This document shows, piece after piece, positions 2,668 through 52,829 of a DNA stretch of 64,000 nt; positions within the stretch are counted from its first letter, which is position 1; each line of letters starts with the position of its first letter. Under the pieces are notes generated by a model, which worked only from the letters and a program-made list of their open reading frames with translations, searched no databases and was not told where the DNA came from. The DNA comes from a virus. Made by a program: the position numbers and the translations under genes. Location of the stretch: positions 1 to 64,000 of the IMG/VR virus record IMGVR_UViG_3300046096_000464, one strand, 5' to 3'.

Positions 2668-3636
2668 ATGGATATAATAAGCGATTTGTCTTTAGTATTG
2701 GATAAATTCAAAAAAACTGGAGAATCTTATACATTTAGGTGTCCTATTTGTGGAGATAGCAACAAAAATAAGTACATCACTAGAGGCTACCTATTTCTGT
2801 CTAAAGAGCGGACTTATATCTACAAGTGCCACAACTGCGGAGTGTGTAAGTCTTTAAATAATTTTTTGAAAGACTCATTTCCTGATTTATATCACAAATA
2901 TCTGTACAGCAATTATACATCTCAACCTGAAACTAAAAGGATAGTTACCTTTAAGTCTCCTAATAGAATATATCGACCCATCATCTTTGAAGAATTACCC
3001 ACTATATCAGAACTTCATAAGAATCACGCTGCCAAGTTATATTTGCAACATCGCAAAGTACCAGAAGCATTTCTCAGAAATGCTTATTACACAGAGAATT
3101 GGAAAAAATTCGCAAATCAGTATAAGCACACTTATAATAATATAGATAAGGAGGAATCAAGGATTGTTATACCGTTGATCATAAATGATCAGGCAGTAGG
3201 GTTTCAAGCGAGACTGTTGGGAGTATCCGTGGGAATTAGGTACATCACAATCATGCTGGCGGACGCTCCTAAGATATACGGTCATGATCTAATTGATTGG
3301 AATAAGCCAGTATATGTTGTGGAGGGCGTGTACGATTCACTTTTTGTCCCAAATTGTATCGCAATGCTAGGTTCTAGCATAGATTTAGATTTTCTGAATT
3401 CCAAATCCAACACTAAATTTGTATTTCTGTATGACAATGAACCATATAATACACAGATTGTTAATCAAATGAAGAAAGTAGTGGATTTGGGGCATTCAGT
3501 TTGCATTTGGGACAAATCCTACAAAGAAAAAGACATTAATGATTGCCTCATTAATGGTACTGACATTAATCCTGTTATAAATAATGATTATTCTGGCACG
3601 AGAGCGAAATTAGAAATTAGTAATTTTATTAAATAA
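2668..3636 (+). CDS. 61: DNA primase (T4 gp61-like)
   Basis: 322 residues. The N-terminal zinc-binding domain has Cys pairs at 25/28 (FRCPICGD) and 54/57 (YKCHNCGVC), as in phage T4 gp61 and DnaG primases. Around residues 210-255 a TOPRIM core is visible: VYVVEGVYDSLF supplies the catalytic Glu and FLYDNEP the acidic pair. The enzyme would synthesise RNA primers for lagging-strand replication with a gp41-type helicase, which is not in this window. Length matches the family (~340 aa). The ATG directly follows the upstream gene. Confidence 0.9.
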   Translation: MDIISDLSLVLDKFKKTGESYTFRCPICGDSNKNKYITRGYLFLSKERTYIYKCHNCGVCKSLNNFLKDSFPDLYHKYLYSNYTSQPETKRIVTFKSPNRIYRPIIFEELPTISELHKNHAAKLYLQHRKVPEAFLRNAYYTENWKKFANQYKHTYNNIDKEESRIVIPLIINDQAVGFQARLLGVSVGIRYITIMLADAPKIYGHDLIDWNKPVYVVEGVYDSLFVPNCIAMLGSSIDLDFLNSKSNTKFVFLYDNEPYNTQIVNQMKKVVDLGHSVCIWDKSYKEKDINDCLINGTDINPVINNDYSGTRAKLEISNFIK

Positions 3637-4164
3637 TTGTGTTATAATGATGTTGTAATTAATATCACTAGTAGATTTGATATAAGGACAAATGGGCAAA
3701 ATGTAAAAATCTATGAACTAGTATATGGAGAAAAGACTAATCAAAACTATGTACTCAATCATTTAGATGACAATCCTAATAATAATAAGCTATGTAATCT
3801 AGAATTAGTCACTAATTGGTTCAACTCATCAATACAGAAGAAGTCATCTGGACTAGATATTGGTATAAACTATAATCGTGATAATCGTGTTGGCAGTTAT
3901 CAAACAAAAATTGCTATGCCAAGAGTAAATGGTAAGAGAATAACTTTTGGTTCACAATCTATTGATTATCTACAAAACTTACATTTCCAATTTGGAGTAA
4001 AGTCAGGATTAGTGTCTTCTGAACGATACTTACAAGAAGTACCTAATTGGTTGCCAGATCTAACTATCCAATTCAAACCAGAACATCAGATCAAACTAGA
4101 ACTACTAATTGAAGCACACATAGAGAATCAACTTACTTGGGATAAGCCGATTAGGTTGGCATAA
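3637..4164 (+). pseudogene. N-terminally deleted HNH homing endonuclease
   Basis: The 175-codon frame aligns with residues ~65-231 of the intact homing endonucleases at 35087-35782 and 63259-63957: the HNH core (NYVLNHLDDNPNNN, NLELVTNWFN) and the C-terminal half ending TWDKPI are retained, while the first ~65 residues are lost. The only possible start is a TTG lying inside a promoter-like TGTGTTATAAT (TATAAT at 3643-3648). That box is the same promoter that precedes the intact copy, so a deletion has joined promoter to mid-gene. In the HNH core Ile-Asp-Gly is changed to Leu-Asp-Asp. Probably not functional. Confidence 0.75.
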
Positions 4165-4185
4165 TCTCACTAAGTCTGTTATAAT
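4156..4185 (+). promoter_or_regulatory. Sigma70-like promoter
   Basis: TTGGCA at 4156-4161, an 18-base spacer and an extended -10 (TG-T-TATAAT, TATAAT at 4180-4185) lie just upstream of the 4214 gene. The same extended -10 recurs elsewhere in the window. Confidence 0.55.
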
Positions 4186-4213
4186 AAAAAGGAACAAAGC
4201 ATTACGACACAAA

Positions 4214-4582
4214 ATGAAATCGTTAGATCCAATTTTCAGCTTTTCCGATCATCCGTCATTAAAAGGCGACCCACGCAGCACGTTATATTGTTGCCCTGAT
4301 AGAAATAACCATATTAAATTCTACTATGCCAACTATGAAGAATTAGTAGAAATCGGATTGAGTAGTTTAGCTTATTGTAACATGGGCGAACCGTATCGAG
4401 TACTAGCCAGACTATATTTTATTAAATTTAATAATTGTCACAAAGAAACTATTAATATCTCAATGGAAGATGCAGTACGACTATACAAATATTTGCAAAA
4501 AATTAATATGATGGTATTAGTATCTAAAGATTTATTAACTGACAACACTTTTAAAAAATATTTAGAAGTATACGAAGATTAA
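4214..4582 (+). CDS. Hypothetical protein, 122 aa
   Basis: A cytosolic-looking alpha/beta protein of 122 residues with several aromatic residues and Cys (YCCPDRNNH near residue 26, LAYCNMG near 53). It has its own promoter and precedes the ribonucleotide reductase locus. No catalytic motif or known family is recognised. Confidence 0.65.
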   Translation: MKSLDPIFSFSDHPSLKGDPRSTLYCCPDRNNHIKFYYANYEELVEIGLSSLAYCNMGEPYRVLARLYFIKFNNCHKETINISMEDAVRLYKYLQKINMMVLVSKDLLTDNTFKKYLEVYED

Positions 4583-4611
4583 TTTTTAATTAAATACTTT
4601 ATATTATTAAG

Positions 4612-4656
4612 ATGATTCACTTTGATTATACAATCATCAGAAGACTAAATTTTTGA
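4612..4656 (+). pseudogene. N-terminal scrap of the HNH homing endonuclease family
   Basis: The short frame MIHFDYTIIRRLNF reproduces the family's conserved opening MIHF/MIHY plus the surrounding leader, then stops. The rest of the 104-base gap before nrdA shows no further gene. It is a footprint of a lost homing-endonuclease copy. Confidence 0.5.
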
Positions 4657-4686
4657 TTAAATATTAACCCACAACAGTAAAAAATA

Positions 4687-7600
4687 ATGCAAGTATTTAA
4701 AAGAGATGGCAGCATAGAACCATTAGATCTAGAAAAGATTCATACAATGGTATTTCGTGCATGTGAAGGGGTTGACGATGTGTCCCCTTCATTAGTAGTA
4801 ATGAATAGTAAAATTCAATTAACAGATGGGATTGCTACAGAATATATTCAAAATCTATTAGTGACATCTGCTAATAATTTAATTACTATCGAAGAACCAA
4901 ACTATCAGTACGTGGCAGCACGACTACTACTATTTGGACTATATAAATCTTTATATCCACAGTGGAAAACATTTGGGTTAGTACATATATATCACCATAT
5001 CACTAGATTCAAAAACAAGTATGATTCTATCTTATTTGACAGTTACTCTAAAGAAGATTGGGACGTACTAAATGAAGCAATTGACCATAGTAAAGATTAT
5101 AAATTTACATATGCGTCGTTACAACAATTAATTGATAAGTATCTAATTCAAGACAGATCTACTGGATTTGTATATGAGATTCCGCAGTATGCGTATATGC
5201 TGATTGCCGCCACAGTATTTCATGATTATCCAGTAGAAACTAGATTAGCTACGGTTATAGATTACTACCATGCAATCTCCGATCATGAAATTAATCTCCC
5301 TACGCCTATTATGAGTGGCGTGAGAACTAAACAACGCAATTTTTCTAGCTGTTTTCCTGCTGGACAATTAGTGCATACAAGTACTGGATTAAAGCCAATT
5401 GAAACTATTTCCGTTGGAAATATGGTGTTGACTCATGCTGGAAGAATGATGTCAGTATTAGCTACGAATGCTAAATATTTTGAACAAAAATATGTAGCTA
5501 TTGATACTTATTCTACTTTGAATGATCAATTTGTTTCAACTGATGATCATTTAATATTTGCGGCTAAGGATGTCGGATGTATTCGTGGTTCTGAACATCG
5601 TTCTTGTATATGCAGTCAGGGTATTTATAAATATTGTGAGAAATATCCCAGACAATATTCTGAAGATTGTATTAATTTATACAAAAATGATTTATTTGAA
5701 CCAAAATGGACACCAGCAAAAGAATTAGATGATAATTATTGGGTACATGTGGCATACAATAAATCTGTAGTAAATACTGAGTATTTAATTATATCAGATA
5801 TAATTGATATTGGTAGTCGATACGATATCAATGAAGAAGGATTGATACATTACAAAAGTTATAGATCTGATATATGGTATGTACCTAATAAAATTTATTT
5901 GAATGAAGAGTTATTCAGATTAATTGGGTATTATTTGGCGGAAGGACATGCTACTGATGGTGGCAGTATGGGATTTACCTTCGGCAACAAAGATAAATAT
6001 ATTATTGATGATTGTGTAAATATTATTCAAAACGTATTTGGGTATACAGTAATTCCCTCTAATAATCCTTACGACAATAGTACTAAAGTTAGTATATGCT
6101 CTAAAATTATTACTAACTTGTTTATCCGGCTGTGTAGCAATAAATTTGATAAAAAGTTTATTTGTTATGAATTAATGAATGCTTCTATAGAATTACAAAA
6201 GCAATTACTGATTGGAGTAATTCGGGGAGATGGTTGTGCGTATTCGCAGGGATTGCAGGTAGGGTTGTCTAATAAACAACTAATTTATCAATTATTTGAT
6301 ATATCTTTGCGATTAAAATTGTCACCAACTATAAATGTGCAAAAATATAATGATGGTATACGCCAAGACGTGTATACTATATATTTTCCTAGAAGTGCAA
6401 ATTATGATTTTATTATGGAAGTTGGTAAAGATGTACATAAAGTAAATTATACTAGTAAAACATACGCTTATGGGATATGGAAAGATGACAATTATTTTAC
6501 TAAAATAAAAAGCGTTAAAATTATTAATAGTATTGACGATAATATAGTGTATGATTTACAAATTGCTGGAGATGAAAGTTTTGTAGTTTCTGGATTATCT
6601 GTACACAATTGCGCTTTACTTGATTGTGACGATTCTACTTTATCTATATCTGCTAATAATCAAGCTACCGCTATGCTCACTGCCGCATCTAGTGGTATTG
6701 GTTTAAATGTGGGACGAATGAGGTCTATTGGTAGTAGTATCAGAAATGGTACAGTTATTCATCCTGGTATCGTCCCATTTTTGAAAATCTTTGAATCGAC
6801 AGGTAAGGCATTTAGTCAGGCGGCGAGAGGTGGAAAACTAACCTGCTATTACCATATTTTCGGATACGAGATCGAAACAGTCATTCAACTCAAGAACAAT
6901 CGTGCAAATGAAGTATCTTCGGTGAAGCATCTTGATTACTGTATTTGTATTTCAGAATTGTTTTATAAGAGATTTATAAATAACCAAAATATCACACTAT
7001 TCTGTAATAGTGATACACCAGGATTGTATGATGCTTTTGGCACCCCAGCATTTGATAAATTATATGAATATTACGAGAAAAAGGATGGGGTGAGAAAGAA
7101 AGTTGTATCTATGCAAAAACTGTTTGTAGATCTAATGGAACAACGATCTGAAACGGCGCGGATTTACATAATGAATGTCGATCATGCTAATACACATTCT
7201 CCGTACTTAGACGGAGTATATATGAGCAACTTGTGTGTTGCCCCAGAAACATTATTACTCACCAATAAAGGATATTTGCCAATTGGTACGCTAGAAGATC
7301 AATCAGTAACGATATGGAATGGATGGGAGTGGTCTGATACGGTAGTAAGAAAAACTGGAATTGATCAGAAACTAATCAATATTAAATTCCAAGATGATAA
7401 AGGTAATATTCATAACATAGAATGTACAGAATATCATAAGTTTTTTATACAATCCCGTAATGATGTAATTGAAGTTCGTGCAAACGATTTGATTGTTGGG
7501 CAATATATTCAGAATTGGAATCCTCCAGAATTTCTAATTGATTCTGATATAACTTTACATCAATATCATAGAGATTGGTGGGTATATAGCACACATAATA

Positions 7601-7827
7601 TCGAAAGATTATCTGATACTTATTGTCTTACCGAACCAAAAAGAAATAGAATGGTAATAAATGGGATTCTCTCTGGGCAATGTGTCGAAATCATCCAGCC
7701 AAGTCACCCAATATCCGATATCAATGATACTGGAATTCACGAACATACTGTAGCAGTTAAGAATAATAAATTAGACGAATTTATTAAGCTATCTCAAGAC
7801 AATGAGTTTCTTGAATTTCCTATCTAA
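4687..7827 (+). CDS. nrdA-a: Ribonucleotide reductase large subunit, N-terminal part, with two inteins
   Basis: 1046 residues. Residues 1-90 are an ATP-cone-like regulatory domain (MQVFKRDGSIEPLDLEKI). Extein sequence reads FSS|CALLDCDDS (first redox Cys, E. coli C225) and SNL|CVEIIQP (radical Cys, E. coli C439, with Asn and Glu neighbours). Intein 1 spans residues 222-641 and intein 2 residues 850-998; each lies immediately before a catalytic Cys. The frame stops at residue 1046, before the third active-site Cys (E. coli C462), which is in the next gene. Two splicing events and assembly with nrdA-b are therefore needed to reduce ribonucleoside diphosphates. Confidence 0.93.
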   Translation: MQVFKRDGSIEPLDLEKIHTMVFRACEGVDDVSPSLVVMNSKIQLTDGIATEYIQNLLVTSANNLITIEEPNYQYVAARLLLFGLYKSLYPQWKTFGLVHIYHHITRFKNKYDSILFDSYSKEDWDVLNEAIDHSKDYKFTYASLQQLIDKYLIQDRSTGFVYEIPQYAYMLIAATVFHDYPVETRLATVIDYYHAISDHEINLPTPIMSGVRTKQRNFSSCFPAGQLVHTSTGLKPIETISVGNMVLTHAGRMMSVLATNAKYFEQKYVAIDTYSTLNDQFVSTDDHLIFAAKDVGCIRGSEHRSCICSQGIYKYCEKYPRQYSEDCINLYKNDLFEPKWTPAKELDDNYWVHVAYNKSVVNTEYLIISDIIDIGSRYDINEEGLIHYKSYRSDIWYVPNKIYLNEELFRLIGYYLAEGHATDGGSMGFTFGNKDKYIIDDCVNIIQNVFGYTVIPSNNPYDNSTKVSICSKIITNLFIRLCSNKFDKKFICYELMNASIELQKQLLIGVIRGDGCAYSQGLQVGLSNKQLIYQLFDISLRLKLSPTINVQKYNDGIRQDVYTIYFPRSANYDFIMEVGKDVHKVNYTSKTYAYGIWKDDNYFTKIKSVKIINSIDDNIVYDLQIAGDESFVVSGLSVHNCALLDCDDSTLSISANNQATAMLTAASSGIGLNVGRMRSIGSSIRNGTVIHPGIVPFLKIFESTGKAFSQAARGGKLTCYYHIFGYEIETVIQLKNNRANEVSSVKHLDYCICISELFYKRFINNQNITLFCNSDTPGLYDAFGTPAFDKLYEYYEKKDGVRKKVVSMQKLFVDLMEQRSETARIYIMNVDHANTHSPYLDGVYMSNLCVAPETLLLTNKGYLPIGTLEDQSVTIWNGWEWSDTVVRKTGIDQKLINIKFQDDKGNIHNIECTEYHKFFIQSRNDVIEVRANDLIVGQYIQNWNPPEFLIDSDITLHQYHRDWWVYSTHNIERLSDTYCLTEPKRNRMVINGILSGQCVEIIQPSHPISDINDTGIHEHTVAVKNNKLDEFIKLSQDNEFLEFPI
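5350..6609 (+). other. Intein 1 of NrdA, 420 aa, with LAGLIDADG endonuclease
   Basis: Begins with Cys (CFPAGQLVHTSTGLKPIETI, intein block A) and ends VVSGLSVHN followed by Cys, the canonical His-Asn/Cys junction. Two dodecapeptide LAGLIDADG motifs are visible, LIGYYLAEGHA near residue 411 of the precursor and LIGVIRGDGCA near 508, so the homing endonuclease looks intact. Insertion is exactly before the redox-active Cys of NrdA. Confidence 0.93.
7234..7680 (+). other. Intein 2 of NrdA, 149-aa mini-intein ending in Gln
   Basis: Starts with Cys (CVAPETLLLTNKGYLPIGTL), has an EYHKF block-B-like His region and ends VINGILSGQ directly before the radical Cys of SNLC. At 149 residues it lacks an endonuclease. 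The last residue is Gln instead of the usual Asn, a variant reported for some inteins that changes the cyclisation step; here it abuts a catalytic Cys +1 residue. Confidence 0.85.
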
Positions 7828-7894
7828 TATCCTCTCAGACCCCTCTAGGATGCCCTACAACGTACGATAATTAAAAATATGACTACTGACATCT
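7828..7894 (+). repeat. Composite intergenic repeat inserted in nrdA
   Basis: Contains the module core at 7846-7864 (TAGGATGCCCTACAACGTA) preceded by CTCTCAGACCCCTC and followed by ATGACTACTGACATC. The last part matches repeats at 18,990, 38,375 and 46,190, so the ATG of nrdA-b and its first codons derive from the repeat. It separates two pieces of one ancestral gene. Confidence 0.8.
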
Positions 7895-8850
7895 TCCGCA
7901 TAGCAACAGACCGCCAATTCGATCCTAATACCGAAACATTAGTAGATGATGTAAAGATAATTGACAGACTGCCACCAGGCATCACATCTTGTGTATTAGG
8001 CGCAATCAGTTGGGATAAGTTATCTGACAACATGTCAGATAACTTTATCAAAATGAAACGATGGTGTGATTTAGAGATCAGATCATTAAATCAGATCATC
8101 GACATACAGGAATACAATATCCCTAGTACAGAGATAGCCACTAAATCCGCAAGATATTTGGGGGTAGGGATTAATGGTTATGCAACATTTGCTGCACGAT
8201 TAGGTTTATCATATAATCATAAAGAATTGTGGCAAATCACTCACGATCTTGCAGAAATGCAGATGTTTTGTCTATTATCTGCATCTAATAACTTAGCCAA
8301 AGAAGTAGGTGAATGTAAATGGTTTTATAAAACTAAATATTCACAAGGAATTCTACCTATCGATCACTACAGGAAAAGTGTAGATGATGTAGTTCCTAAT
8401 AATCTTAATATGGATTGGGAAGGGTTGAGAGAATCAATTTTGATGAATGGACTCAGAAACAGTGCATTTTCTGCGGTGATGCCTGTACAATCATCTTCTG
8501 TAATTAGTAACAGTACTAATGGAATCGAACTACCTCGCGCACCATTACAAATCATAAAGTCAAAGAATCGATTAATTCGACAAATAGTAAAAGATTTTAA
8601 AAAATTAGAAGATAATTATGAGTATTGTTGGGAAAAAAGTACAAATACAGGATATATCAATATTTGTGCCGTAATTCAAAAATTCTTCGACCAATCTATC
8701 TCAGCCAACTTGTATTACGATCCTAAATGGTTTTCAGACCAAACTATACCAATGGGTACGATGATTGGTGATGTCTTATATGCGTACAAGATGGGATTAA
8801 AAACATTGTATTATGCTAATTCAAATGACGGTCGAGATGATTATGAATAA
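7879..8850 (+). CDS. nrdA-b: Ribonucleotide reductase large subunit, middle/C-terminal part
   Basis: 323 residues continue NrdA where nrdA-a stops. TSCVLGAI (residues ~35-42) carries the second redox Cys (E. coli C462); MPVQSSSVISNSTNGIELPR and the TLYY radical-transfer tyrosines near the end are diagnostic. The first residues MTTDI come from the inserted repeat, so the start codon is recruited. The frame ends right after TLYYANSNDGRDDYE and lacks the C-terminal Cys pair that re-reduces the active site; that pair is in the next small frame. It must assemble with nrdA-a and NrdB. Split NrdA has a precedent in Aeromonas phage Aeh1, where a homing endonuclease sits between the halves. Confidence 0.92.
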   Translation: MTTDIFRIATDRQFDPNTETLVDDVKIIDRLPPGITSCVLGAISWDKLSDNMSDNFIKMKRWCDLEIRSLNQIIDIQEYNIPSTEIATKSARYLGVGINGYATFAARLGLSYNHKELWQITHDLAEMQMFCLLSASNNLAKEVGECKWFYKTKYSQGILPIDHYRKSVDDVVPNNLNMDWEGLRESILMNGLRNSAFSAVMPVQSSSVISNSTNGIELPRAPLQIIKSKNRLIRQIVKDFKKLEDNYEYCWEKSTNTGYINICAVIQKFFDQSISANLYYDPKWFSDQTIPMGTMIGDVLYAYKMGLKTLYYANSNDGRDDYE

Positions 8851-8913
8851 TCCAGTTAAATGTGTTAAAATAGATAAATAATTAATTACCCACCAATATA
8901 TAAATCAAGAACC

Positions 8914-9087
8914 ATGCCAGAACAACATCCAGAATTGCTAACCGAAATATTGCCATCACACCCATTACCAATTCCTCAGCCAGAATTGCTGACAGAAGTA
9001 CTGTCCACTTCTCCACATAAACGTAAGTATTGCACACCAATGATCATTAATGATGACACAGAAAGTTGCGAAAGTTGTAACGTTTAA
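8914..9087 (+). CDS. nrdA-c: Candidate free-standing NrdA C-terminal redox tail peptide
   Basis: 57 residues from ATG 8914. The end, NDDTESCESCNV, is a textbook NrdA swinging-arm tail (a Cys pair at the extreme C-terminus that shuttles electrons from thioredoxin or glutaredoxin), which nrdA-b lacks. The front is a duplicated low-complexity linker (PELLTEILPSHP then PELLTEVL). It is separated from nrdA-b by 63 bases including a TGTGTTAAAAT box and a stop. Either the tail works in trans or this is a relic of a C-terminus severed by rearrangement. Confidence 0.7.
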   Translation: MPEQHPELLTEILPSHPLPIPQPELLTEVLSTSPHKRKYCTPMIINDDTESCESCNV

Positions 9088-9114
9088 AAGGTATTAGGTA
9101 ATATAAATCCCACT

Positions 9115-9140
9115 AAATCCCACTAAATTTAGTGGGATTT
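9115..9140 (+). terminator. Hairpin between nrdA and nrdB
   Basis: AAATCCCACTAAA pairs perfectly with TTTAGTGGGATTT (13-bp stem, no loop bases needed beyond the centre). It lies after the nrdA tail and just before the AT palindrome at 9147-9164. Confidence 0.6.
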
Positions 9141-9146
9141 ATTAAA

Positions 9147-9164
9147 ATTATTAAATTTAATAAT
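9147..9164. repeat. AT palindrome ATTATTAAATTTAATAAT (reference copy)
   Basis: An 18-base perfect palindrome 3 bases before the nrdB ATG. Full or core copies occur at 13723-13739, 19267-19283, 26354-26367, 30077-30090, 30144-30155, 33627-33640, 35071-35084, 38431-38443, 38881-38894, 39153-39166, 44763-44779, 45211-45224, 47364-47377, 52836-52853, 55106-55121, 56547-56564, 58667-58682, 60365-60379 and 61934-61951. Many lie 2-10 bases before an ATG where no Shine-Dalgarno is obvious, others just after stop codons. Confidence 0.85.
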
Positions 9165-9167
9165 AAC

Positions 9168-11231
9168 ATGTCAGTAATAAATTTAGACAACTCAATCGAC
9201 TTCACGAAGCAAACTCAATTTTTCGATCAACAATTAAATTTACAACGATACGATAAGTATAGATATCCTCTGTTACATCAACTATACAAGACTCAAAAAT
9301 CATACTTTTGGAGTCCGACGGAGATAACATTACAGAAAGACAAAATAGACTATTCAAACTTGACCGAACAAGAAAAATTTATTTACACATCCAATTTAAA
9401 ATATCAAATTTTGTTAGATAGTGTGCAATCTAGAAGTACATTGTTAGCATTTTTGCCATTTGTATCTCTACCAGAATTAGAAAAAAATATAATTATTTGG
9501 GGATTTTTTGAGACTATTCATTCGGAATCATATACTCATATCATTGAGAATGTATATAATAAGCCATCTGAAATTTTTGATAATATTCTGAATATTCCAG
9601 AAATAGTAGAGCGAACCAAACAAGTCACTAAATATTATGATGAGTTTATTGATTTTTCTAGTAGTTGGAATACCTCTAGTATAAAGACATTATTAGTAGA
9701 CGGTAATGTTACCGCTAATCAAACATTATTAGAATTAAAACGTTCATTATATCTAGCTATAGTGAATGTGAATATCTTAGAAGGTATTAGATTTTATACA
9801 TCATTCGCTTGCTCATTTGCCTTTGCAGAAAATGCTAAAATGATTGGTTCTTCTGATATTATTAGTTTAATTGCCAGAGACGAAGCATGTTATACCACTG
9901 GACATGAAGCTTTGACGGATACTGGATGGAAACTAATTGAAGATATTACAAAAGAAGATAAAGTGGCACAATACACCAACAATAATGCAGTAGAATTTGT
10001 TCACCCCACTGCTATTATTAATAAACAATATATTGGTGATGTATATCAATTTATAGACGATTCCGGCAGAATTGAACAAATTGTTACTGCCGATCATCGA
10101 ATGGTGTGGCGTGAGTTATTTACAGGCAGAATGAAAGAATCGGTAGCAGCTACCACTAATTTTACATCAAGTAAGGCAATTGTGGTTAGTGGTATAGTTT
10201 TAGCAGGAGCAGTAGAATTAAGTCCTATAGAAATTTTAAATATATACACTGAATATTGTGGTACTGTTTTAGAAGTATTAGAACATAAATTAAAGGTGGA
10301 GTTTAATGTAAAAAATGAGACTAATTGGAGTAAATTGGGTAGATCTTTAGTTGCATTAGGAATTAGTTACGATTACTATATTACATATAAAACTGGAGTA
10401 TATACCATAACTTGCGAGATACCAACAGCTTCTTTACAAAAATATTTTAGTTGGGTGAATATCCAGGGTAAGTCTACATTATGGGCACAAAATTTAATAA
10501 ATTTATGTAGGGCGTTGAATGGTAACAAATCTTGTATGTCTTCCGTTCCTGGTAAGTTTAAATTTACTATCAATCATACTAAGAGTTTGAAAAAGTTACA
10601 ACAAGTGTTTGCTATTAGTAATTGGAAAATATATCATACTCACCCGTCAAAAAAATATGTTGGGTATAATATTAACGTATTGACTACTAGAAATTCTCAT
10701 ATTACTTCAAAAACAGAGAAGGTTAAACAAAATTATAGTGGCAAGGTTTATTGTTTATCTGTTCCTTCTGGTGCATTTTTTGTTAGATATAATGAAAAGG
10801 TTTCAGTTGGGGGCAATTGTCATACTCGACTTACTGAAACTATTATTAAGAATTGGCAAGCTGGTGAGGATAAAGATATTCTTAATATTATTAAAGAAGA
10901 AGAACAATTGGTATATACTATGTTTGATCTAGCAGTAGCGGCGGAAATAGAGTGGGCAGAATATCTTTTCAAAAATGGTAGTATATTGGGGTTGAATGTA
11001 GAACTATTATCACAATATATTAAATTTGTGGCGAATCGTAGACTTAAAGCGATCAATATGAAGCCACTGTATGACGATGTTTCTGTCAAGAATCCTTTGC
11101 CCTGGATCGATAATTATCTGAAGTCTTCTAATATAAGTGTCGCGCCACAAGAAACGGAGGTCTTATCATACCAAATTGGTAATATTGACAAAAATATAAG
11201 TGAAGGGCAATTCAGTAATTTTGAATTGTAA
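9168..11231 (+). CDS. nrdB: Ribonucleotide reductase small subunit with intein
   Basis: 687 residues from ATG 9168, placed just after the AT palindrome; an upstream in-frame GTG at 9132 lies in the terminator hairpin and is less likely. Di-iron ligands are visible: ETIHS (Glu, His), LEGIRFY (Glu) and ARDEA|CH (Glu, His). The tyrosyl-radical subunit would pair with the NrdA fragments. An intein occupies residues 241-550, between the Glu and His of the last ligand motif, so only spliced NrdB can bind iron. After it, CHTRLTETIIKNW to the FSNFEL C-terminus is normal extein. Confidence 0.93.
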   Translation: MSVINLDNSIDFTKQTQFFDQQLNLQRYDKYRYPLLHQLYKTQKSYFWSPTEITLQKDKIDYSNLTEQEKFIYTSNLKYQILLDSVQSRSTLLAFLPFVSLPELEKNIIIWGFFETIHSESYTHIIENVYNKPSEIFDNILNIPEIVERTKQVTKYYDEFIDFSSSWNTSSIKTLLVDGNVTANQTLLELKRSLYLAIVNVNILEGIRFYTSFACSFAFAENAKMIGSSDIISLIARDEACYTTGHEALTDTGWKLIEDITKEDKVAQYTNNNAVEFVHPTAIINKQYIGDVYQFIDDSGRIEQIVTADHRMVWRELFTGRMKESVAATTNFTSSKAIVVSGIVLAGAVELSPIEILNIYTEYCGTVLEVLEHKLKVEFNVKNETNWSKLGRSLVALGISYDYYITYKTGVYTITCEIPTASLQKYFSWVNIQGKSTLWAQNLINLCRALNGNKSCMSSVPGKFKFTINHTKSLKKLQQVFAISNWKIYHTHPSKKYVGYNINVLTTRNSHITSKTEKVKQNYSGKVYCLSVPSGAFFVRYNEKVSVGGNCHTRLTETIIKNWQAGEDKDILNIIKEEEQLVYTMFDLAVAAEIEWAEYLFKNGSILGLNVELLSQYIKFVANRRLKAINMKPLYDDVSVKNPLPWIDNYLKSSNISVAPQETEVLSYQIGNIDKNISEGQFSNFEL
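9888..10817 (+). other. NrdB intein, 310 aa
   Basis: Starts CYTTGHEALTDTGWKLIEDI, carries a block-B-like TADHRMVW, and ends YNEKVSVGGN followed by Cys-His of the extein. Its length exceeds a mini-intein by about 150 residues but no clear LAGLIDADG dodecapeptide is visible, so the endonuclease domain is divergent or decayed. Confidence 0.9.
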
Positions 11232-11257
11232 TTATTGTTCATAAATCACTATAGAAA

Positions 11258-11345
11258 AGAGCAATTATGGAGTTGCTCTGATTAACATGCTCTGAGAGGG
11301 GTGTAGAATGCTGTGTAACGCACAGAAATTATAAATAAGATTATT
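11258..11345 (+). promoter_or_regulatory. Hairpin, repeat module and late-type promoter
   Basis: AGAGCAA/TTGCTCT hairpin (11258-11279), then the repeat core at 11304-11322 and a perfect T4-type late promoter box TATAAATA at 11330-11337, 25 bases before the next ATG. It terminates nrdB and likely drives the following two genes. Confidence 0.55.
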
Positions 11346-11362
11346 ATTATCAAAATATAAAA

Positions 11363-11824
11363 ATGATCAAAGAATTGATGAAGATCAAAGATCTAACAGA
11401 ATTTGAATGCGATTGTGAAGGGGTTAGAGACAAACTATTCAATACTCCAGAATTATTGACAATAACAGAACTGATTTATTTTTTGAGGATGTCTAATAAT
11501 TTAGATTACTGGATCACTGGTACTCATTATGCAGTGATGAAATTAGTATCTTTATTAAGAATGCTCGAACCAGTTTATGGGGTATATAAGGAACAAGATA
11601 AAGAAAAAAATAGAATTATCACTAGTATTTGTTTAAATTTTATTAGCAGCGAGAAGGGGTCATTACAGTATGCTGCATTGGATTTGGTAGAGGCTGGGAT
11701 TTGTGCGGAGTATCAACCAATCGTTGATTTATTCCCCGTTATTGAGAAAATAATTATTGGTGACAGACATACCTCCAAATATGTATTATCTCATTTAAAA
11801 TTAATTAAGGATTCGCATATATGA
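11363..11824 (+). CDS. Hypothetical helical protein, 153 aa
   Basis: 153 mostly helical residues, with an N-terminal FECDCEGVRDKLF segment and no membrane helix. A late-type promoter lies 25 bases upstream, and the stop overlaps the next ATG by 4 bases (ATGA). Its job may therefore relate to the structural-looking downstream protein. Family not recognised. Confidence 0.65.
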   Translation: MIKELMKIKDLTEFECDCEGVRDKLFNTPELLTITELIYFLRMSNNLDYWITGTHYAVMKLVSLLRMLEPVYGVYKEQDKEKNRIITSICLNFISSEKGSLQYAALDLVEAGICAEYQPIVDLFPVIEKIIIGDRHTSKYVLSHLKLIKDSHI

Positions 11825-12384
11825 GAGAATTAGTAGAATCAGTTAAAGTATTTTATCTACTAACAGAAAGTGGAGATAGACCACCATCCAGTGAGATAGA
11901 ACACGACGAAAAGAATAAACATTTGAAAACAAAATTAACAAAATACGCATATTCATCTAAGTATAACCACCCAAATCATTTTTCTCCAGATTATTCAGGG
12001 ACATTTCATGGTGTATCTTGGAATACAGATCATGACACTGAAAAAATGGATAAAAACCAAAAAATAGGAATTGTACAAGATGCCATACACTTACAAAAAC
12101 ATTTTGTAAAAAATGTAGCAAAACCTGGCGATGTGCTACGAAGTATACCAGATGAAGATGATGATGGCGAAGGTGGTAATAAACGCGGAAAACTATATCA
12201 AAAAGTTGGTTTTGGTAAATTAGGAAATAGAACTTCTCAGTATGGAATAATTAAACAACATCCTCATGACCACGATGACGAAACTAAACGAGGACAACAT
12301 TATCTACATCCGTTAGAACACGAAGAAATAGAATTGTCTCGAAAAAAATATTACGAAGAACGTGCAAAAAATGGCACCAAATGA
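11821..12384 (+). CDS. His/Asp-rich protein, paralogue of 61126-61929
   Basis: 187 residues sharing an ordered set of motifs with the 267-residue protein 49 kb downstream: an opening MREL/MRKL..FY.L, a P-S-x-Y-H/N-x-D-YSG block, GD-V-RS with an acidic stretch, GEGGNKR/GEGNKR, QYGI-K, KRG and YLHPLEH. Many His, Asp and Lys residues suggest a metal- or nucleic-acid-binding protein, but no known fold is evident. The first ~20 residues resemble a leader (LVESVKVFYLLTESG) and could be a processed head-targeting peptide; that is speculation. Confidence 0.7.
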   Translation: MRELVESVKVFYLLTESGDRPPSSEIEHDEKNKHLKTKLTKYAYSSKYNHPNHFSPDYSGTFHGVSWNTDHDTEKMDKNQKIGIVQDAIHLQKHFVKNVAKPGDVLRSIPDEDDDGEGGNKRGKLYQKVGFGKLGNRTSQYGIIKQHPHDHDDETKRGQHYLHPLEHEEIELSRKKYYEERAKNGTK

Positions 12385-13639: not shown

Positions 13640-13890
13640 TGATGATAATTAATTACAATGGGGGGGGGGGTAATATCATGCTCTAGCTATCACACATCCT
13701 TTGCGGAGGATGTTTAACGAATTTATTAAATTTAATAATGACCTTCTAATTGATTTTAGAAGGTCATTATTTTTATGATTTGACACTAGTACTCATATTT
13801 ATAGTTTTTGTGCGTTGTAGAGCATTTTAGCGATGTCTGGCAATACATTAATAACTGTGTTATAATGATTATATAGTTTATATTAATAAA
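13640..13890. repeat. Composite intergenic module, reverse copy, plus promoter
   Basis: Non-coding. In order: an 11-base G run (13660-13670), a CATCCT/AGGATG hairpin, an AT palindrome (13723-13739), terminator AATGACCTTCTAA/TTAGAAGGTCATT (13737-13768), a minus-strand TATAAATA box (13796-13803), the reverse module core (13811-13829), and a plus-strand promoter TGGCAA-17-TATAAT (13838-13866). It is the clearest complete copy of the module on the reverse strand. Confidence 0.75.
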
Positions 13891-22689: not shown

Positions 22690-22757
22690 TGATACCAGTA
22701 GTCATATTTATAGTTTTCCTGCGTTGTAGGGCATTCTAGTCCCCTATCAACGCATAT
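22690..22757 (-). repeat. Composite intergenic module, reverse copy with late promoter
   Basis: Minus-strand core at 22720-22738; TGCGTTGATAGGGG on that strand can pair with CCCTACAACGCA. The TATAAATA at 22705-22712 points toward gp53, showing that modules carry promoters. Confidence 0.75.
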
Positions 22758-47548: not shown

Positions 47549-48778
47549 ATGTCAATCGAAGTCGTAAACCATACTACAGCAACAGCAACAGGTAAAGTAA
47601 AAAGTCCTTCTGCCTACCTCAAATCTATTACAGACGCAAAGAAAATTGGCGAATTTTTCACAATTCCTTTATCAGCCTTAGAAATATACCCAAACTTCAA
47701 CAAGCGCACTGACTATAAACTCGATGAATTGAAATTATTTATTGAACAAAACAGTGTTAGTGCATTACCAGCTATCAAGCTAATGTATATCGATGGCAAA
47801 TTGTATGTAGAAGAAGGGCATCGGCGACAAAAAGCTTGTGTTGAACTGGACTTGCCCCCAGAAACCCCAATCAAAGTATTTATTGGGGAACCATCATCTT
47901 CCGCAGAAAGACTAGCGCGCCAAATTTCCAGTAATTCTGGGGAGAAATATAATTTTGTAGAGATGGTGGCGGTGGTTAAAGAGTTGATTCAAAAGGAAGG
48001 TATGACCCAGACTCAAGTAGCCAAGATGATTGGTAAAACTCAAGGTTCTGTAAGTCAGATGTCTTTGTTCTTCAATTACAGCAATCTCTTGCTGCTCGAA
48101 ATTCAACATGGTTCCATCAAGTATACACGAGTAATGGAATTACAAAAATCTGGTTATACCGAAGAACAGATTTTAGAAGTAATCAAGAAAAGTACTCATA
48201 ATTCTACTTCAGATAAAGCACCAGTACCACCAATAAATCCTGATTCTGATAAATTAAACCAATTGTTAGGCGACGATCATCCGATAGATGATAAAAATAC
48301 ATCTGGTGGTAAGCGGAAAGGTAGTAAATCTGGTGGTAAGCAGAAAGGTAGTAAATCTGGGGGTACGCGGAAAGGGGATGAACCCGTAGAAGAGGATCTG
48401 ATTAATGCGGAATCCCTAGAAAACCCAGAAGAGGATCTGATTAATGCGGAATCCCTAGAAAACTCAGAAGAGGATCTGATTAATGCGGAATCCCTAGAAA
48501 ACTCAGAAGAGGATCTGATTAATGCGGAATCCCTAGAAAACTCAGAAGATTATGATGACGAAGAACTAAAAAAAGCGGTAATACTCAAAGATAGCGGTGT
48601 TGCTCCCAATAAACCAACTGCAACAGAGACTAGTATTAAAAAAGTTAATGTAAAATTGGTGTTGGTCAATTTCTTCATTGATGCCAAGATTGTTGATAAT
48701 GGCGATGGTACTGTTTCATACAACATCACCCAAGAACAGCACGCTGAGTTTCAGCGTAATTGTATGAATATCCAGTAA
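47549..48778 (+). CDS. parB: ParB/Noc-like DNA-binding protein with acidic repeats
   Basis: 409 residues. Residues 38-130 are a ParB/Srx-like N-terminal domain (FTIPLSALEIYPNFNKRTDY, LYVEEGHRRQKACVEL with the GxxR-type motif, SAERLARQISSN). Residues 150-190 are the ParB helix-turn-helix (GMTQTQVAKMIGKTQGSVSQMSLF). A KGSKSGG basic linker is followed by four near-identical 13-residue EEDLINAESLENS repeats (about 48389-48547). No ParA is visible. It may regulate transcription or segregate replicons. Its promoter carries an inverted repeat that could be its own site. Confidence 0.85.
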   Translation: MSIEVVNHTTATATGKVKSPSAYLKSITDAKKIGEFFTIPLSALEIYPNFNKRTDYKLDELKLFIEQNSVSALPAIKLMYIDGKLYVEEGHRRQKACVELDLPPETPIKVFIGEPSSSAERLARQISSNSGEKYNFVEMVAVVKELIQKEGMTQTQVAKMIGKTQGSVSQMSLFFNYSNLLLLEIQHGSIKYTRVMELQKSGYTEEQILEVIKKSTHNSTSDKAPVPPINPDSDKLNQLLGDDHPIDDKNTSGGKRKGSKSGGKQKGSKSGGTRKGDEPVEEDLINAESLENPEEDLINAESLENSEEDLINAESLENSEEDLINAESLENSEDYDDEELKKAVILKDSGVAPNKPTATETSIKKVNVKLVLVNFFIDAKIVDNGDGTVSYNITQEQHAEFQRNCMNIQ

Positions 48779-49759: not shown

Positions 49760-50896
49760 ATGCTTTCTCGCTATAATTATCGATTTTATCCAACTCCTCA
49801 CCAACAGTTGCGCCTTGCGCATACTTTTGGTTGCTGTCGTTTTGTTTATAATCATATTTTAGCGATTATTAAATCTAATACTCTCAAATTTACTTCTGCT
49901 TACGATCTAATTAAACTTGTTACTTTACTTAAATCTGAGCACACTTTTCTGAAAGATGTCTCGTCTGTTGCTCTTCAACAATCTGTTTCTAATTTAGGTA
50001 GTTCGTTTAAAAACTTTTTTGATTCCCTGAAAGGGAAACGCAAAGGTCAAAAAATAGGTTTCCCTAAATTTAAAAAACGTACTAATTCTCAAAGTTGTAC
50101 ATTTCAATCTAATGGGTATCAATTACTAGCAAATGGCGAAATATCTATAGCTAAAATCGGTACGATTAAACCTATATATTCTCGCGAATTGCCTTCTACC
50201 CCTACTTCTTGCACGATTACTAAAGATTGTGCAGATAGATATTTTATCAGTTTTGTCGTACAAGTAGAACCAGTACAAATATATAGCGAATCACCGAGTA
50301 TCGGTATCGATTTAGGTATTCAAACTTTTGCTATTTGTTCTGATGGGACTGCATATAAATCTCCTAATACCTATAATAAACTCTATGACAAGATTGCTAA
50401 AGCACAACATAAACATGCTAAGTCACAACCAGGATCTAAACGTAGAAACAATCTTAGGCTTTCGATAGCAAAATTACATAACAAAATTACTGATATTCGT
50501 AAGGATTTCCATCATAAAGTAAGTACTTTAATTTGCAGCAAAAACCAAACTGTAAGTTTAGAACATCTGAATGTAAAAGGAATGCTTGCTAATCGAAAAT
50601 TGTCGAAAGCAATAAGTAGACAAGGGTGGAGTAATTTTGTAGTACTAATTAAAGCTAAATGTGATAAATTTGGGAGAGAATTTGTACAGATAGGGAGATT
50701 CTATCCAAGCAGTCAGATATGTAACGAGTGTGGATACCGATGGGGTTCGCTAGACTTGTCCATAAGGACGATTAAATGCGAAAGATGCGGAGTAATACAC
50801 GATAGAGACATAAATGCAGCAAAGAATATAGATAAAGTCGGCATCGGTCATGGGCACGACTATAAATGTGCGGTGAGAGCAGGTAAGACTAGATAG
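49760..50896 (+). CDS. tnpB: TnpB RNA-guided nuclease
   Basis: 378 residues, full length for compact TnpB. N-terminal helix-turn-helix-like YRFYPTPHQQLRLAHTFGCCRFVYNH; RuvC residues in GIDLGIQ (Asp ~184), SLEHLNVKG (Glu ~267) and HDRDINAAKNI (Asp ~350); a zinc finger CNECG...CERCG between the last two. All catalytic residues are present, so it is probably active. TnpB uses an omegaRNA from the element's right end to cut DNA next to a TAM and so retain the element. Confidence 0.93.
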   Translation: MLSRYNYRFYPTPHQQLRLAHTFGCCRFVYNHILAIIKSNTLKFTSAYDLIKLVTLLKSEHTFLKDVSSVALQQSVSNLGSSFKNFFDSLKGKRKGQKIGFPKFKKRTNSQSCTFQSNGYQLLANGEISIAKIGTIKPIYSRELPSTPTSCTITKDCADRYFISFVVQVEPVQIYSESPSIGIDLGIQTFAICSDGTAYKSPNTYNKLYDKIAKAQHKHAKSQPGSKRRNNLRLSIAKLHNKITDIRKDFHHKVSTLICSKNQTVSLEHLNVKGMLANRKLSKAISRQGWSNFVVLIKAKCDKFGREFVQIGRFYPSSQICNECGYRWGSLDLSIRTIKCERCGVIHDRDINAAKNIDKVGIGHGHDYKCAVRAGKTR

Positions 50897-52265: not shown

Positions 52266-52829
52266 ATGACGGACACAAAAGTAGTTTTGCTTCTTTTCTT
52301 TTCTGGCACATACGACACTATATGGGCACCACCATATCCTACAGACGACAATGGTGACGAACTATTAGGCGATCTAGACTTTGGATTATATATGAATTAT
52401 ATATCACACGGTATTACATTAGAAGTAGACAAATTGCTACCATTTGCTGATGGGGATGTAGTATTTCAGTCGTGTCACGTACCAAAAGAATACAATAGTG
52501 TCACTGACACTATTATAGTGACATTAAAGAACTACCGAAATAACATAAATTATCTACGTGGATATGCAGCATATCACAAAAAATACTTCCAAAAGTATCT
52601 CAACAGTAATTTTAAATCCTGTGATGGATTTATTTCATACTACTCTGATAATTATGATTTTTGGGCACAACAATATTCTGAAGATCTTGATGAAGTGGAA
52701 GTTGGAACATACTTGTCATTCTATCTGATAAGTGAAGTATCTGTAGATTTGAACGAATACATTTTTGATTCAGTGGCTACAGATGTAAGAGAATGGGTAT
52801 CGGACAACTTCACTTATGAGTCTGAATAG
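52266..52829 (+). CDS. Hypothetical acidic early protein, 187 aa
   Basis: 187 residues, very acidic and Tyr-rich (TYDTIWAPPYPTDDNGDELLGDL, YYSDNYDFWAQQYSEDLDE). Such composition is shared by most proteins of the 51-60 kb region and would suit DNA-mimic or host-protein-binding inhibitors; this is inference from composition. Preceded by a structured leader and followed by a palindrome and terminator. Confidence 0.65.
   Translation: MTDTKVVLLLFFSGTYDTIWAPPYPTDDNGDELLGDLDFGLYMNYISHGITLEVDKLLPFADGDVVFQSCHVPKEYNSVTDTIIVTLKNYRNNINYLRGYAAYHKKYFQKYLNSNFKSCDGFISYYSDNYDFWAQQYSEDLDEVEVGTYLSFYLISEVSVDLNEYIFDSVATDVREWVSDNFTYESE

Follow-up and report, generated by a model that had tools for sequence, protein, structure and literature searches.

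A putative free-standing redox tail in the class Ia ribonucleotide reductase locus of a T4-like phage

The ribonucleotide reductase locus and its signals

The window analyzed here covers 64,000 nucleotides of a 109,315-bp virus record (IMGVR_UViG_3300046096_000464) whose T4-like genes include those for a primase and a baseplate hub. The ribonucleotide reductase (RNR) locus, at 4687-11231, is organized in the order nrdA-a, nrdA-b, a 57-amino acid open reading frame (ORF), and nrdB (Table 1). A PF02867 search detected this as the only class I or class II large-subunit locus of the record; no additional PF02867 locus was found that would indicate a second NrdA or a further tail elsewhere. Other ORFs of this T4-like phage include a ParB-like partition protein (window positions 47549-48778, phrog_1033) and, inside the phage record, a transposase (49760-50896, phrog_506, E 1.5e-112).

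The locus is also present in three further IMG/VR contigs from sister metagenomes. These are 99.99-100% identical to the window, with an identical tail region, the sole difference being a G-run at 13660, and an assembly error can thus be ruled out. As the three contigs belong to the same phage, they confirm the sequence, yet do not constitute independent lineages.

Table 1. Features of the RNR locus, with the evidence used to assign them.
Feature	Position	Strand	Basis
nrdA-a, encoding the N-terminal portion of the large subunit of the class Ia RNR	4687..7827	+	PF03477, PF00317, PF02867; alignment to intact relatives
First nrdA-a intein, inserted at the Cys equivalent to C225 and containing a LAGLIDADG homing domain	5350..6609	+	Pfam Intein_splicing, Hint_2, LAGLIDADG_3
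Second nrdA-a intein, a mini-intein, inserted at the Cys equivalent to C439	7234..7680	+	Alignment; weak PT-HINT match
Copy of dispersed promoter/leader-like repeat, in nrdA-a/nrdA-b gap	7832..7885	+	Aligned copies
nrdA-b, C-terminal barrel part	7879..8850	+	PF02867 positions 224-522 of 523; tblastn; alignment
AT-rich gap, 63 nt	8851..8913	+	In-frame TAA codons; no stable fold
Putative free-standing NrdA redox tail, 57 aa	8914..9087	+	Motif scan, tail profile, codon usage
Hairpin, 16-bp, directly 3' of the tail ORF	9103..9142	+	Fold -21.6 kcal/mol, z -4.2
12-bp palindrome ATTAAATTTAAT before nrdB	9150..9161	.	23 copies in window
nrdB, class Ia small subunit	9168..11231	+	Pfam PF00268, NCBIfam PRK09101
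nrdB intein	about 9888-10817	+	Limits by eye from translation

The nrdA-a gene, in which two inteins are inserted (limits taken from alignment to relatives), encodes the ATP-cone, the all-alpha domain, and the beginning of the barrel, and its 3' end is a 30-aa add-on, IHEHTVAVKNNKLDEFIKLSQDNEFLEFPI, identified by alignment to Aeh1 and to the related contig L014 (IMGVR_UViG_3300031952_001355). The product of nrdA-b, which gives tblastn matches to more than 4700 phage NrdAs, carries the C462 equivalent and the YY pair after an N-terminal add-on of about 34 aa. The nrdB reading frame is already open from a GTG at 9132. The single RNR operon, thus, contains three inteins (two in nrdA-a, one in nrdB), those of nrdA being located at active-site cysteines. 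The active-site cysteines (SSC, SNLCVE, ITSC) and the YY residues are all retained, as is the C-terminal NFEL peptide of NrdB. Retention of these residues suggests an enzyme under selection, even though its body lacks the tail.

Several potential regulatory signals surround these genes. The hairpin 3' of the 57-aa ORF is likely the terminator of the nrdA unit, although a terminator consensus scan did not pick it up. Since nrdB has its own upstream palindrome and the hairpin follows the tail ORF, nrdA-b and the tail ORF probably form one transcript, ending at the hairpin. The palindrome itself is a candidate regulatory site. Its copies are found at 9150, 13725, 19269, 26355, 30144, 33627, 38882, 45212, and 61937, among other positions; several lie a few bases 5' of start codons, and several adjoin a hairpin. 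The dispersed repeat, which provides the first codons of nrdA-b, may be a phage promoter or leader, and is regarded here as a candidate. About ten additional copies occur in the record, on both strands and often just 5' of genes: at 11290, 18970, and 34966 (+) and at 22738 and 62055 (-) in the window, and at 74853, 87965, 94502, 103382, and 105777 beyond it, being intergenic where checked. Its consensus is about TAG(A/G)ATGCCCTACAACGnAnGAnAA..AAAT(A)ATGACTACT.

The break within the NrdA barrel

The break separating nrdA-a from nrdA-b lies between the C439/E441 and C462 equivalents. On alignment, this is the point at which NrdA is split in phage Aeh1, where the gene order is nrdA-a, mobE, nrdA-b and where the fragmented class I NrdA is functional by experiment (PMC3653736, PMC2988022, PMC3267527). 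The initial annotation had not remarked on this correspondence. Aeh1 has mobE between the two halves, whereas the phage described here has a 51-nt gap containing the dispersed repeat instead of an endonuclease. The Aeh1 NrdA-a ends in ...EIALPTVPMGKKEKMLFKVKKSEVDKFKLMVATDQYKSLRY, and a short add-on followed by EISLC is found at the start of its NrdA-b.

In L014, nrdA is broken at the same site, with similar add-on ends and with the tail on NrdA-b. When aligned, the add-on ends of Aeh1 (KMLFKVKKSEVDKFK), L014 (KMKVKVKKDKVEDYK), and this phage (HTVAVKNNKLDEFIK) are alike, but for this phage the similarity is marginal (shuffle p 0.06 with Aeh1 and 0.01 with L014; L014 and Aeh1 give 0.007). Between the nrdA halves of L014, at the mobE break point, lies a 254-aa ORF (3223-3987 of that contig), which by eye looks like a GIY-YIG endonuclease and had no match in NCBIfam. 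This suggests that different endonucleases have used a single nrdA site in L014 and in Aeh1. In the phage studied here, an ancestral endonuclease insertion would presumably have split nrdA as in Aeh1, and would later have been lost.

In Aeh1, the tail (...SSCDVCKV) has remained fused to NrdA-b, whereas here nrdA-b ends in DDYE* and the tail constitutes a third piece. As the tail has been kept on NrdA-b in both Aeh1 and L014, tail fission is a separate second event. With the Aeh1 split point shared and the tail present as an extra ORF, NrdA appears to be encoded as three pieces in this phage, tail fission being the new part.

The 57-residue ORF downstream of nrdA-b

The stop codon of nrdA-b is found directly after the conserved YYAN that ends the barrel (YYANSNDGRDDYE), at a position where relatives run on into the redox tail. 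The initial annotation had noted that nrdA-b lacks the C-terminal Cys pair, and this is borne out by its C-terminus, ...GLKTLYYANSNDGRDDYE*. The next ORF starts with an ATG and is translated as MPEQHPELLTEILPSHPLPIPQPELLTEVLSTSPHKRKYCTPMIINDDTESCESCNV. It carries two copies of PELLTE(I/V)L, then NDDTESCESCNV at its very end, with NDDTES-CESC-NV as the terminal motif. It, therefore, has the Cys pair among its last residues, after an acidic stretch, as is typical of class I NrdA tails, and a linker motif (PELLTEIL and PELLTEVL, versus KPELESLLNDIM in L014). The linker duplication, also recognized in the initial annotation, is borne out by CCAGAATTGCT at 8929 and, 51 nt further on, at 8980. Across the linker core of eight codons, the copies differ by four codon changes, three of which are synonymous, the fourth exchanging Ile and Val.

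The reading of this frame as a NrdA swinging arm was supported by a motif scan and a profile search. An NrdA-type Cys-pair end was found in one of the 239 ATG ORFs of at least 30 aa in the window, namely the tail ORF, and in two ORFs from 100 windows simulated with a first-order Markov model. The only other ORF of the window with a loose CxxC end, at 52816, was rejected because the motif is absent. With a profile built from the tails of 78 relatives, the tail ORF was the top real ORF of the window; its score is modest (11.9 bits), and was exceeded by one in 5000 shuffles of its own residues. No match was obtained for it in Pfam or NCBIfam.

Codon usage offers a further view on translation. The tail ORF scores 0.10 per codon, compared with 0.115 for nrdA-b, which is the best of the six frames and is matched by 0.35% of nucleotide shuffles. 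Codon usage, the synonymous linker changes, and the profile match together point to translation and are suggestive, the numbers being small. The start context is mediocre, as 33% of all ATGs score equally well or better, and no Shine-Dalgarno motif was seen before the ORF, nor before nrdA-b.

These observations bear on whether the ORF could be a decaying remnant, left after a recent insertion, deletion, or stop cut the tail off. NrdA-b would then work poorly, or be reduced directly by small thiols or other redoxins, and tail-less RNRs are indeed reducible by DTT in vitro (PMC4520616). The weak start context and the occurrence of the arrangement in one phage species would both fit such a relic. 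Nevertheless, the frame is open from its ATG to the natural end of the tail (57 stop-free codons are expected by chance with a probability of about 0.012), its codon usage is gene-like, its motif is intact, the differences between its linker copies are mostly synonymous, and the remainder of the enzyme is intact. We consider a relic unlikely.

The two genes could also be joined during expression. A frameshift or a readthrough linking the ORF to nrdA-b, which the initial annotation had named as evidence against a separate peptide, was looked for and not found. As the tail ORF is in the nrdA-b frame, joining the two would need no frameshift, and the tail could become fused by readthrough or by a bypass of 63-75 nt past the nrdA-b stop, of the T4 gene 60 type. 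A GAA codon before this stop, and a second one just past the tail ATG, would suit a bypass. However, the tail has its own ATG and lies past four in-frame TAA codons, and neighboring genes end in TAA, which indicates that this codon is not recoded. The gap folds less well than its shuffles (z-score +1.3 to +1.5), and comparison with shuffles revealed no take-off hairpin at the nrdA-b stop. Recoding is, thus, highly improbable.

Splicing is another way in which nrdA-b and the tail could be rejoined, if the gap belonged to an intron or to an element resembling an intein. Mobile elements are indeed abundant at this locus, with its three inteins and its Aeh1-type split. However, a group I or group II intron would not fit into 63 nt, an Rfam search of 4000-12000 gave no match to an intron or any other RNA family, and the gap contains stops, so it cannot be an intein. 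This explanation is barely credible. Together, the four TAA codons and the lack of structure in the 63-nt gap speak against all three of readthrough, bypass, and an intron.

Comparison with relatives, which the initial annotation had advised, was based on three sets of viral sequences. Among the matches listed, about 280 relatives whose ends can be read (the rounded total of the three sets, between which some contigs overlap) have the tail fused, with one likely frameshift exception, and this phage alone has it separate. In the first set (86 loci), the end is complete in nearly all cases and includes the Cys pair as an in-frame fusion; one NrdA (L058) is cut by the contig end. In the second (99 stretches), leaving aside one chance match and two contig-end cases, every complete NrdA has a fused tail, except the copies of this phage. 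The third contains 117 fused tails out of 120, two NrdAs open at the contig end, and one (L229) that had seemed to be a split tail but has it in another frame, and looks like a frameshift. Two other candidates were rejected: L104, a chance pattern match, and S-RIM12, in which an apparently truncated NrdA has its tail intact and fused.

Searching 50,697 phage records by tblastn with the 57-aa peptide returned chance matches only (E 3-8). The tail of a relative matched 380 records, of which the 60 listed were NrdA-annotated or unannotated, barring one match at chance level (Morganella phage vB_Mm5). The class Ia tails of cyanophages and other T4-like phages resemble that of the phage studied here, with an x-L-x-x-L(L/I)-x-x-(I/L) linker, an acidic stretch, and C(D/E)(S/A)C plus two residues, but they are always fused to the barrel and have a single linker motif, whereas here the tail is separate and the motif duplicated. 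Among the relatives listed, the free tail so far appears unique to this single phage species.

Thiol exchange in trans

In class I RNRs, the disulfide formed in the active site is reduced again by the C-terminal Cys pair, which thioredoxin or glutaredoxin reduces in turn (PMC9669993, PMC9531940). For the phage enzyme, the sequence evidence makes it fairly likely that a class Ia RNR operates with a three-polypeptide large subunit, in which the 57-aa peptide, NrdA-c, works in trans as the thiol-exchange arm. NrdA-a and NrdA-b would form the barrel, probably associating via their add-on ends, as in Aeh1, and NrdA-c would be the redox tail. Once a turnover is complete, non-covalently bound NrdA-c would use its CESC pair to reduce the disulfide between the C225 and C462 equivalents in the active site, and would itself presumably be re-reduced by host thioredoxin or glutaredoxin. 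No phage thioredoxin or glutaredoxin was found on the 109-kb record, which is possibly incomplete; this counts against the proposal. The likely docking element is the linker, of which relatives have one segment and this phage two, and we hypothesize that the duplicated motif strengthens non-covalent binding. The gene layout, the identity of the tail, the intact catalytic residues, the lack of a fused tail, and the coding signal are read directly from the sequence; the translation of NrdA-c, its binding, its action in trans, and its host reductant are what we infer.

AlphaFold models of an intact relative showed the tail to be disordered (pLDDT below 50) apart from a short helix that coincides with the linker motif, and those of NrdA-b read through to the tail showed it almost entirely disordered (pLDDT below 50). 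As the arm is flexible in these models, the fold does not need covalent continuity. No confident docking of the linker motif was obtained for the relative or for NrdA-b plus tail, so its docking is likewise something we infer. Binding may be weak, as the peptide is 57 aa long and lacks a folded domain.

A tail could, alternatively, be lent by the host NrdA in mixed dimers, the phage ORF being irrelevant. In yeast, the tail of one Rnr1 monomer reportedly serves the neighboring monomer, an observation attributed to Zhang et al. in 2007. Such host help would leave the conserved tail motif and the coding signal of the phage ORF unexplained, and we regard it as a very remote prospect compared with NrdA-c acting in trans.

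RNRs in which reducing equivalents are supplied by a rearranged system have been described. The nearest precedent is the class II RNR of Pseudomonas aeruginosa, in which a separate subunit, NrdJb, carries out thiol exchange in trans and is indispensable in vivo (PMC4520616). The redox Cys pair is, there too, on a separate polypeptide, but NrdJa is a class II, AdoCbl-dependent enzyme, whereas the tail partner here is a class Ia NrdA with NrdB; NrdJb also has IscU-like and Zn-finger domains, whereas the phage peptide has 57 aa and none of the database matches. Facklamia ignava has a glutaredoxin domain fused to its class I NrdB (PMC6187632), which likewise rearranges how a class I RNR receives its reducing equivalents; a reductase domain has been gained on NrdB there, whereas the phage has undergone fission of the NrdA tail.

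The initial annotation had held that a reducing tail working in trans would be new for this enzyme. RNR fragmentation by mobile elements and thiol exchange in trans are already known, and as NrdJb is a trans-acting thiol-exchange subunit of class II, the principle is not new. For class I NrdA, novelty holds as far as could be found: a family-wide analysis describes split redox tails for class II only (PMC9669993), and no free class I NrdA redox tail was found in the relatives listed or in the literature examined. We lean, by a narrow measure, towards a diffusible or docked class I redox-tail subunit, with the covalent arm replaced by a peptide of 57 residues whose docking motif is duplicated.

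If true, RNR turnover in this phage would depend on, and possibly be controlled by, a separate gene product. Because the NrdA tail is normally tethered, it is hard to ask how it reaches the active site; tethering also obscures whether the tail acts within or between monomers, and whether a tether is needed. A natural separate arm would open these questions to experiments in which the peptide is added, left out, or altered. Phage RNR fragmentation would go from two pieces, as in Aeh1, to three, and the free tail would be the class I counterpart of the class II NrdJb.
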